A stretch of DNA of 64,000 nucleotides from Maribacter arenosus (GTDB taxonomy: Bacteria > Bacteroidota > Bacteroidia > Flavobacteriales > Flavobacteriaceae): NCBI RefSeq assembly GCF_014610845.1, contig NZ_JABTCG010000004.1, positions 186,001 to 250,000 of the forward strand, read 5' to 3'. A program made the translations under genes and the position numbers. Shown here piece by piece: positions 42,571-44,360 of this stretch. Position 1 is the first letter of the stretch; each line of letters starts with the position of its first letter. Below the pieces are notes generated by a model. The model was given only the letters and a program-made list of their open reading frames with translations, did not search any database and was not told the DNA's origin.

Positions 42571-43044
42571 ATGTTTTTAAAAGAGTTCGAAGTACGTTGG
42601 AACGATATTGATGCCAATGGCCATTTGGGCAATTCGGCTTATACTAATTTTATGAGTCATACCAGAATGGCCTTTTTGATGGAACTTGGTTTAGGACTTG
42701 GGGTTCTGGTCAAAAACAAAATAGGGCCTGTGGTTTTTTATGAACATATGTACTATTTCAAGGAGGTTTTTCTTGGGAAACCCATCAGGGTATCCTTGGA
42801 GGTTAAGGGGATGAGCGAGGATGGTTGTTTCTTCGAATTCCATCATAATTTTTATGACAGTAATGGCAAAAACGTCGCCCATTGTGAAATGATGGGCGCA
42901 TGGATCAGTCTGGAGTCAAGACAGCTTATACCCCTTTCGAAGGAGTTGTTACAGCGCTTTAAACAAGTTGATAAGCCTGAAGGCTTTCGTGTTCTAACCA
43001 AGGATGATACTCGTAAGTTTGCGAAAAGACCAAATGATTTATAG
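42571..43044 (+). CDS. Acyl-CoA thioesterase, 4HBT hot-dog family
   Basis: 157 residues. Single hot-dog domain: FEVRWNDIDANGHLGNSAYTNFMSHTRMAFL (the D-x-N-G-H-x-N-x-x-Y pattern of 4-hydroxybenzoyl-CoA thioesterase relatives) followed by KIGPVVFYEHMYYFKEVFLG. Asp17 (first D of DIDANGH) is the expected catalytic acid. Hydrolyses an acyl-CoA; chain specificity unknown. The stop lies 1 nt before the left inverted repeat of the GIY-YIG unit. Confidence 0.87.
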   Translation: MFLKEFEVRWNDIDANGHLGNSAYTNFMSHTRMAFLMELGLGLGVLVKNKIGPVVFYEHMYYFKEVFLGKPIRVSLEVKGMSEDGCFFEFHHNFYDSNGKNVAHCEMMGAWISLESRQLIPLSKELLQRFKQVDKPEGFRVLTKDDTRKFAKRPNDL

Positions 43045-43045
43045 C

Positions 43046-43071
43046 TTGTCATTCCGAGGCACGAGGAATCT
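43046..43071. repeat. Left 26-bp inverted repeat of the GIY-YIG unit
   Basis: Begins TTGTCATTCC and ends GAGGAATCT. It is the exact reverse complement of 43436-43461. Internally ATTCC/GGAAT can pair around a 9-nt loop, so each copy can fold by itself, as REP sequences do. Confidence 0.92.
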
Positions 43072-43087
43072 TTCGTAATTTTTGAGG

Positions 43088-43414
43088 ATGGATACTGAGG
43101 GATATCATGTTTATCATATTTATATAATTACCAATTCTACAAAATCCGTGTTGTATACTGGAGTAACCAATTATTTGGCAAAAAGACTTTATCAGCACAA
43201 AGAGAATATTACTTTGAAAAGAGAATCTTTTGCCTCAAAATATAAATGTAAACATCTGCTCTATTATGAAAAATTTACATGGATTCAAGATGCAATTGCC
43301 AGGGAGAAAGAAATTAAAGGGTGGCGTAGGCAAAAGAAATTGGATTTAATCAAAACTATTAACCCCAATTTAAACTTTTTAGAGTATCTATTTCCTTTCC
43401 CAAACAATCATTAG
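43088..43414 (+). CDS. Single-domain GIY-YIG nuclease
   Basis: 108 residues from the ATG at 43088 (a TTG two codons earlier is in frame). GIY-YIG fold: VYHIYIITNS with Tyr12, LYTGVTNYLAKRLYQHK with Tyr23-Thr-Gly25, Arg33 and His37, then EKF (E61) and AIAREKEIKGWRRQKKLDLI. These residues match UvrC-type and URI-family nucleases, but there is no UvrC C-terminal half; labels such as excinuclease subunit C would be wrong. It is the only gene between two perfect 26-bp inverted repeats. The first motif is Y-x-x-Y-I rather than GIY, as is frequent in this subgroup. Confidence 0.88.
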   Translation: MDTEGYHVYHIYIITNSTKSVLYTGVTNYLAKRLYQHKENITLKRESFASKYKCKHLLYYEKFTWIQDAIAREKEIKGWRRQKKLDLIKTINPNLNFLEYLFPFPNNH

Positions 43415-43435
43415 AATTCTGGCAAGTTATTGTTT

Positions 43436-43461
43436 AGATTCCTCGTGCCTCGGAATGACAA
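43436..43461. repeat. Right 26-bp inverted repeat of the GIY-YIG unit
   Basis: Begins AGATTCCTC and ends GGAATGACAA; exact reverse complement of 43046-43071. Confidence 0.92.
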
Positions 43462-43472
43462 ACAACTAGGCT

Positions 43473-44360
43473 TTATTGCCTCACTTTTCTACTTGACAAA
43501 TACACTCCGATAAATACCAATGAAGCTGCAACAATTTTTATCGTGGTCAACGTATCCTTACCCGTAGCGAGCGCATAAAGAATGCCAATGAGTGGTTGCA
43601 GATAAACAAAAGCGCTCAAGGTAGAGGCCTTTAATTGGGTTAGTGCAAACACATTGAACAGGTAAGTAAAAAAGGTTGTCCCGATAACCACAAAGGCAAT
43701 ACGCCAAATGATTTCAAAGGGTAAAAGCAACCATTCGATTTCTAAAAACTCCTGGTAACCAAAAGGGAGGCAAATAAGAATACCTAATGAAAACAACCAT
43801 TTCATAAATGTGAATGGGTGGTATTTCGATATCAATATTTTGGCCAGTATCAAATAGGTGCCATAGAAAAAGGAATTTAATAAAATCAGAAAATTCCCGA
43901 GGGGAATATTCGGGGCATCCTGCCGTAGTTCATTACTGAATAAAATCAAACCCAAAGCCCCAAGAAGCCCGATAAAAATCCCAAATACTTTTCTTCCAAC
44001 TATTTTTTCCTTGATCAATACGGAAGACAATATCAAGACGATGATGGGGGTGGTGGTTATTAGTACGGCACTATTTATAGGTGTTGAAAGGGATAAACCT
44101 TTAAAGAACACGAGCATATTTACCCCCATACCGAAGATTGCGCATACGAATATCCGCAGATAATCTTTCTTTTCGATTTTCTCTTTGGGTCCCCAAAGAG
44201 AAATAAGCCAAAAAAGTGCCGATGCACCCAAGACCCTTAGTAACACAAAGCCAAAAGCGCCTACATAATTGGGCATAACACCTTTGGCGATGGTATGGTT
44301 TAGTCCATATATGGTGGTCGCCCCAATGGCTGCAAGAATAGCTAAGGTTCGTTTGCTCAA
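43473..44360 (-). CDS. EamA/DMT-family transporter
   Basis: 295 residues with ten hydrophobic helices in two EamA repeats (first: AAIGATTIYGLNHTIAKG to about 140; second: FLILLNSFFYGTYLILAKIL to the end, LKASTLSAFVYLQPLIGILYAL). The drug/metabolite transporter layout is clear; substrate unknown (amino acids or metabolites are usual). The start overlaps the stop of the ArsC-like gene by 4 nt (ATGA). Confidence 0.9.
   Translation of the reverse strand: MSKRTLAILAAIGATTIYGLNHTIAKGVMPNYVGAFGFVLLRVLGASALFWLISLWGPKEKIEKKDYLRIFVCAIFGMGVNMLVFFKGLSLSTPINSAVLITTTPIIVLILSSVLIKEKIVGRKVFGIFIGLLGALGLILFSNELRQDAPNIPLGNFLILLNSFFYGTYLILAKILISKYHPFTFMKWLFSLGILICLPFGYQEFLEIEWLLLPFEIIWRIAFVVIGTTFFTYLFNVFALTQLKASTLSAFVYLQPLIGILYALATGKDTLTTIKIVAASLVFIGVYLSSRKVRQ

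Follow-up and report, generated by a model that had tools for sequence, protein, structure and literature searches.

The closest described systems to the locus considered here are the REPIN/RAYT systems, or REPtrons. In the portions of the two accounts on which we draw (PMC3116915, PMC8266576), these comprise short tagged imperfect palindromes (REPs) that are dispersed as inverted doublets, and a gene which is flanked by the same palindromes and whose enzyme co-varies with the repeat. REPs abound in bacterial genomes, and a second group of them is the CGTC superfamily, TGTC and CCTC variants included. According to the consulted sections of a 2013 survey, these repeats have a stem of 8-9 bp, a loop of 4-5 nt, and a CCA tail and "apparently lack a dedicated transposase", which leaves the superfamily without an enzyme (Di Nocera 2013, PMC3733652). 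A search of the open-access literature by title and abstract found no paper linking GIY-YIG nucleases with REPs. GIY-YIG enzymes are classic homing nucleases, with I-TevI and I-BmoI as free-standing examples. Here we describe a 416-bp unit of Maribacter arenosus in which a GIY-YIG nuclease gene is enclosed by TGTC-tagged REPs. We consider it probable that this is a REPtron-like mobile unit and that its UPF0213/Slx1-type nuclease is the dedicated partner of TGTC-tagged REPs, as RAYT is of GTAG-tagged ones.

The unit occupies positions 43046-43461 of the window, i.e., the whole 64-kb stretch of DNA that was analyzed. The preliminary description of this DNA had placed exact inverted arms around a single 108-residue GIY-YIG gene, and a letter-by-letter comparison bore this out: the left arm (43046-43071, + strand) and the right arm (43436-43461, - strand) are exact reverse complements at 26 of 26 positions, with their tags pointing outwards. 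The left arm reads as a TTGTC tag, A, the stem TTCC, GA, the loop GGCAC, GA, the stem GGAA, T, and CT, and thereby fits the REP grammar defined below. It is followed by a leader of 16 bases (43072-43087, + strand) and by the nuclease gene (43088-43414, + strand), which runs from ATG to stop and was the sole gene seen between the arms. Among the 24 inverted pairs of at least 20 bp in the window, the arm pair ranks first and is the only one with 100% complementarity; by simple arithmetic, a perfect 26-bp inverted pair is expected by chance about 5 × 10⁻⁷ times in 64 kb. The location between two convergent genes was likewise confirmed. A thioesterase-like gene (PF13279; 42571-43044, + strand) ends one base before the left arm, and the stop of an EamA transporter gene (PF00892; 43473-44360, - strand) lies beyond the right arm at a distance of 11 bases.

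Each arm had also been proposed to fold on itself through ATTCC/GGAAT. The pairing is present, though the hairpin predicted for free DNA is weak (-1.9 kcal/mol, z -0.39 vs shuffled sequences), and folding of single REPs as DNA with standard energies revealed no unusually stable hairpin. To our knowledge, standard DNA energies do not credit sheared G.A pairs. The unit as a whole folds far better (z -5.5 vs shuffles), because a long inverted repeat must fold better than its shuffles. An inverted repeat in this convergent setting could be a chance structure or a bidirectional terminator, as hairpins can end transcription. We regard this reading as extremely improbable, since it leaves unexplained the 26-bp identity across the gene and the upstream copy, as well as the phylum-wide recurrence around one gene family and the co-variation with the protein described below. 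In addition, an Rfam search of positions 42900-43600 gave zero matches.

A search of the 4.17-Mb M. arenosus genome with the 24-base core of the arm, allowing up to three mismatches, returned two matches, which are the two arms themselves. The preliminary description had held that a 26-mer found only here and behaving as a plain terminator would speak against a mobile repeat. For this genome the restriction to one place is literally the case, and the copy at 43046-43461 therefore has no visible offspring; the repeat family to which the 26-mer belongs is dispersed in relatives. The same genome contains nine Pfam GIY-YIG matches, four of which (the window gene and loci L003, L004, and L006) are small and, by alignment, of one type. 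These four are also the matches that the family-wide search gave in this genome. All four small genes are bracketed by palindromes on both sides, and these differ in sequence while having a common build: a perfect 27-bp pair at L003, arrays of two other types at L004, and long-loop types at L006. As a side observation, the L004 gene (G000:C1, ~918933) lies within a long alternating tandem array of two REP types with TTTC and TTCC stems.

All of these REPs share one build: the GTC tag is followed by a single base, in most cases A, and then by a stem of 4 bases, GA, the loop, a second GA, the complement of the stem, and as a rule T. The GA opposite GA would form a tandem G.A mismatch within the stem. 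Searching with this grammar yielded 681 matches in 1.31 Mb around 153 loci (own, database, and family loci, as sampled below) vs 15 in the reversed sequence, and 464 of the 681 lie beside the gene. In these 464 REPs, for which the search specified GTC, the tag is followed by A in 94% and preceded by T in 80%, so that it is of the TGTC(A) type and not GTAG. Most have the 4-base stem with an A-T foot and then GA/GA. The loop measures 5-8 nt in 294 of the 464 and up to 42 nt in others. After the stem, T is found in 83%, then C in 78%, then T in 59% or A in 26%. For the pair next inwards of GA/GA, the search pattern imposed no complementarity, yet 258 of 306 distinct REPs have a Watson-Crick pair there, as compared to 6 of 14 control matches. 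These REPs resemble the CGTC superfamily, as far as the consulted sections of the survey describe it, in the TGTC tag variant, the A-T at the stem foot, the inverted doublets, and the occurrence in Bacteroidetes; they differ from it in having an associated GIY-YIG gene and, it seems, in the post-stem bases, for the most part CT or CA in place of CCA (PMC3733652). The stem count of 8-9 bp in those sections may have taken the GA positions as paired.

The association between gene and repeat was followed in three samples, all of which consist of best matches and not of random draws: the best 80 of at least 503 relatives in a collection of species representatives (database sample), 69 of the 89 other family genomes with a match, each represented by a single gene and the 20 left out having weaker matches (family sample), and the best matches in the phylum of the window, 30 loci of which four repeated the family sample, leaving 26. 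Four loci were common to two samples (L029/L113, L031/L190, L062/L193, and L064/L131), and their removal gave 171 distinct loci. In this pooled set, a REP is found no more than 300 bp from the gene at 147 loci, on both sides at 116, and in inverted, tags-out arrangement at 95, vs 4-5% (either side) and 0.1-1% (both sides) for random placements overall. At the best 80 of at least 503 database loci, REPs were found on either side in 75, on both sides in 56, and inverted with tags out in 45; the corresponding values for 17,941 random placements on the same contigs were 4.0%, 0.06%, and 0.04%. The family sample gave 50, 40, and 34 of 69 loci (9476 random placements: 5.2%, 1.0%, and 0.16%), and the phylum-wide sample gave 26, 23, and 19 of 26.

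A test that is free of the motif led to the same association. Exact inverted repeats of at least 15 bp between the two 300-bp flanks occur at 28 of 79 database loci (from the best 80 of at least 503, one locus with a cut flank being omitted) vs 0 of 1122 random placements, and at 15 of 65 family loci with full flanks vs 1 of 1020. At 35 of 46 loci with such a repeat, the repeat overlaps the motif. The strict grammar finds no REP at 19 of the 69 family loci and at 5 of the 80 database loci (again the best 80 of at least 503).

The association is found repeatedly throughout the phylum and extends to another, and among GIY-YIG genes it is limited to the closest relatives. In the phylum of G150 (Spartobacteria), 22 of 145 genomes have a match. 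Among 30 loci from this phylum, some of them from one genome, a REP lies within 300 bp at 9 of 11 loci with tblastn scores above 70 bits and at 0 of 19 below, a split that was chosen after the result had been seen; random placements gave 11 of 517. A hint that the link reaches the Alphaproteobacteria comes from two Methylobacterium plasmid loci, where the gene, broken in one case, is flanked by CCTC-tagged REPs on either side. With the CCTC-tag grammar, a REP was found at neither of two Sphingomonas plasmid loci, which do not show the link. By eye, an inverted pair of palindromes is seen upstream of the GIY-YIG gene at one of the Sphingomonas loci (L224), with the order stem-GA-loop-GA-stem and GTTCA in place of GTCA.

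REP number is also related to the presence of the gene. The AT-footed REP pattern has 1250 copies in 149 family genomes vs 194 for the reversed pattern. In comparisons uncorrected for phylogeny and genome size, the mean is 11.0 copies in the 90 genomes with the gene vs 4.3 in the 59 without it (p 1 × 10⁻⁴), and at least 15 copies are present in 22 of 90 vs 2 of 59. Six of the 36 genomes with at least 10 REPs lack a close gene; a looser search of these six revealed broken remnants in two and nothing close in four. Two genomes without a close GIY-YIG gene, G094 and G036, have 64 and 50 AT-footed matches, respectively, and in G036, which has Y1 transposase genes, one of the latter has a REP doublet nearby.

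These counts bear on the proposal that TGTC-tagged REPs are moved by Y1 transposases (TnpA-REP/RAYT or IS200-like) of the same genomes and that the link with GIY-YIG is incidental. Such a role would fit G036, with its 50 REPs, its Y1 genes, and no close GIY-YIG gene. It would also fit a subclass of TnpA-REP in Bacteroidetes for which the part of the source used here reports atypical flanking structures that recur elsewhere in the genome (PMC6006769). In the uncorrected comparison, any Y1 match goes with more REPs (p 0.0013), whereas strong Y1 matches do not predict REP number (p 0.19). Moreover, of 20 Y1 genes selected from strong matches in 19 family genomes, 18 have no such REP nearby, two have one on one side, and none is flanked on both sides. 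We therefore consider it very improbable that the Y1 enzymes are responsible.

Nuclease and REPs also vary together. Across 152 loci with REPs, a set that includes the four doubly sampled loci, protein distance and REP distance are correlated with a Mantel rho of 0.57, the largest value among 999 permutations being 0.11. Since shared descent alone could yield such a correlation, paralogs were compared within genomes. The input consisted of 26 loci in seven multi-copy genomes; ten were dropped for want of a REP by motif or for a short ORF, 16 had a usable REP and ORF, and one of these had no partner left in its genome. For 14 of the 15 testable paralogs, in six genomes, the REP lies nearer to that of the closest foreign relative than does the REP of any co-resident paralog (Wilcoxon p 6 × 10⁻⁵; some of the 15 form reciprocal pairs, own/G032 and G044/G125, and so depend partly on each other). 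On the same contigs, REPs at a distance of more than 1 kb follow their gene as well: at 13 of 14 loci they resemble the REPs beside that gene more than REPs from other loci (p 1.8 × 10⁻⁴), and 15 of 32 are identical or nearly identical to the gene's REPs. The parallel to REPIN/RAYT that the preliminary description had drawn is thus strengthened by an association that is recurrent, confined to the closest GIY-YIG relatives, and accompanied by co-variation of repeat and protein.

The protein itself differs from the enzymes of the described REPtrons. The 108-aa product matches Pfam PF01541 (GIY-YIG, E 1.4 × 10⁻¹⁶) and no other Pfam family; neither a Y1 HUH transposase nor an IS200/IS605 tnpA Y1 was detected in it by Pfam. 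Among 175 proteins, including the four of M. arenosus, Y12 and Y23 are retained in 99% and G25, R33, H37, and E73 in about 100%. These six positions are what we take to be the catalytic-type residues of the GIY-YIG superfamily. The predicted structural model was confident (pLDDT 92.5), and the nearest solved structure in a fold search was the UPF0213 protein 1zg2 (E 1.7 × 10⁻³, probability 1.00), followed by Slx1 (probability up to 0.99; e.g., 4xlg) and, well below both, I-TevI; no solved structure was matched at E 0.001. The protein therefore shows both the fold and the Y, Y, R, H, and E residues by which the GIY-YIG superfamily is recognized. UPF0213 is also closest in sequence. Slx1 cleaves branched DNA, and the titles of the Slx1 entries in the fold search agree with this activity. 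For five proteins of the family, NCBIfam gave no match above its cut-offs. A UPF0213-type gene beside rsmI in Radiobacillus differs from the present ones in having no such REP nearby.

The kinship to UPF0213 and Slx1, together with the conserved catalytic-type residues, would also suit a domesticated host nuclease that processes REPs or resolves cruciforms for genome upkeep, with REPs as its working sites and their neighborhood a historical matter. Against this stand the patchy presence of the gene (90 of 149 family genomes), the occurrence within one genome of paralogs that each have their own repeat type, the non-syntenic locations, and the broken copies, and we judge a host function of this kind quite improbable. 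The lack of synteny is apparent in the database sample (the best 80 of at least 503 relatives), where 18 of 25 protein pairs with 80-89% identity have no neighbor gene in common within 3.5 kb, some of the contigs being short, whereas all four pairs with at least 90% identity do have one, as vertical descent would give.

Turnover of the unit was examined at two sites within the genus. At the thioesterase-EamA junction, the unit is present in two of 12 genomes, M. arenosus and G032. The search for orthologous junctions without the unit, suggested by the preliminary description, was thus successful in the other ten, which have neither gene nor REP at this junction: the two genes overlap tail to tail in six, a 32-bp gap lies between them in one, the thioesterase match is broken in one, and two lack the thioesterase. 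Between M. arenosus and G032, the arms agree at 25 and 26 of 26 positions and the leader at 15 of 16, while the sequence just outside the unit gives a poor, gap-rich alignment (agreement in 60 of 81 and 60 of 91 columns). The nucleases are 91% identical and the neighboring genes 78% and 82%; at third codon positions the values are 74% for the nuclease vs 53% and 47% for the neighbors. In a six-gene tree the two genomes are not sisters, and therefore either one gain and one loss or two gains may have taken place at the site in the window.

The second site, between metG and tex, holds the sister unit L003 and was readable in 10 of 12 genus genomes. Four contain the unit (G000, which is M. arenosus, G458, G449, and G452, the last being partly N-masked). 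In G450 and G451, inspection by eye revealed decayed ends of the gene together with a REP that is itself decayed or stands alone; G456 has only a degenerate REP, also found by eye, and no metG. The remaining three (G032, G455, and G457) have a bare gap of 6 bp. From these filled, decayed, and bare sites it follows that REPs and gene come or go together. Target duplications, for which a search had been suggested as a further check, were sought at both sites and none was identified. In G449, L003-type REPs stand beside the gene (L306) in steps of 215 bp, which suggests local amplification. Upstream of tex and apparently inside metG, a long-loop REP of another type is seen at about 1030 bases in M. 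arenosus (L304) and at about 553 bases in G032 (L309).

The chief rival to dispersal of REPs by the nuclease is homing. According to this explanation, something else spreads the REPs; the GIY-YIG gene encodes a free-standing homing endonuclease that recognizes them, and it has found a safe place to insert between the two REPs of an existing doublet. The gene does lie between REPs, and in genome G127 (locus L317) between whole doublets; the way in which repeat types follow protein clades and the higher REP load in genomes with the gene would fit as well. The unit further resembles I-TevI and I-BmoI in carrying a small GIY-YIG catalytic domain and in coming and going. It is unlike them in that the protein has 108 aa without a separate DNA-binding domain, its structure is nearer to UPF0213 and Slx1 with I-TevI far below, and the gene is bounded by its own palindromes. 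In addition, the gap is free of REPs in genomes that lack the gene (10 of 12 at thioesterase-EamA and, with the bare 6 bp, 3 of 10 readable at metG-tex), so that at these two sites, a small number, the REP was not a pre-existing target. A homing recognition site outside the REP is possible. On balance we hold homing to be rather unlikely.

The doublet form of the repeat, as in REPINs, is present in a relative, while the 26-mer is not dispersed in the genome of M. arenosus. G127 has one such gene at E 1 × 10⁻¹⁵ or better, and of its 16 pairs of neighboring REPs, 15 are inverted and have their tags on the outside. Fourteen of these lie far from the gene. The doublets fall into two size classes, 86-87 and 98-101 bp, and the 14 are 71% alike inside vs about 30% across the adjoining 100 bp; their boundaries, TT|GTC and GAC|A, are sharp. 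The gene itself (L317) has a doublet on each side, the downstream one identified by eye. Judged from their sequences, the G127 doublets look REPIN-like.

Returning to the nuclease as the partner of TGTC-tagged REPs, a mechanism can be proposed. In single-stranded or extruded DNA, each REP would fold into a hairpin with a stem, the tandem GA/GA mismatch, the inner pair, and the loop. The nuclease would recognize this hairpin together with the GTC tag and, at each of the two REPs, introduce a nick close to the tag. The doublet could then be copied or moved to an intergenic site, either alone or with the gene enclosed, and host enzymes would seal the ends. Sealing by the host is proposed because a GIY-YIG enzyme is not expected to form a covalent protein-DNA intermediate. 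In this respect the system would be unlike REPIN/RAYT as portrayed in the parts of the sources used here, with a GIY-YIG nuclease in place of a Y1 HUH enzyme, TGTC(A) in place of GTAG, and no covalent tyrosine intermediate (PMC3116915, PMC8266576). The earlier proposal that a GIY-YIG protein is linked to the dispersal of palindromes therefore stands for the association and for the turnover of the unit; that the nuclease does the moving is what we infer from them.

In a broader form, the proposal is that GIY-YIG proteins are the missing enzymes of the CGTC/TGTC REP superfamily and thus a second, independently evolved REP-mobilizing machinery in Bacteroidota, Verrucomicrobia, and perhaps Alphaproteobacteria, which would move REP doublets through structure-specific nicking followed by repair by the host, and not through tyrosine transesterification. 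We give this an even chance. For a superfamily left without an enzyme in the consulted part of the 2013 survey (PMC3733652), the nuclease is a specific and testable candidate partner, and at about 100 aa it is small enough for simple biochemistry. If the proposal is true, REP dispersal was solved twice in nature with unrelated nuclease chemistry, and a function would be suggested for small bacterial proteins that are widespread (in the 90 of 149 family genomes) and have no NCBIfam name.

The remaining five GIY-YIG matches of the M. arenosus genome have no REP bracket of this kind. Small GIY-YIG ORFs were also observed directly adjoining tRNA genes, at L008 (G000:C20:178799-179011) next to tRNA-Pro and at L009 (G000:C12:261393-261590) next to tRNA-Leu. 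On the far side of each ORF there is a partial tRNA copy, with about 37 and 23 identical bases, respectively, and small palindromes lie beside the copy at L008. These two loci possibly represent a tRNA-targeting GIY-YIG unit.
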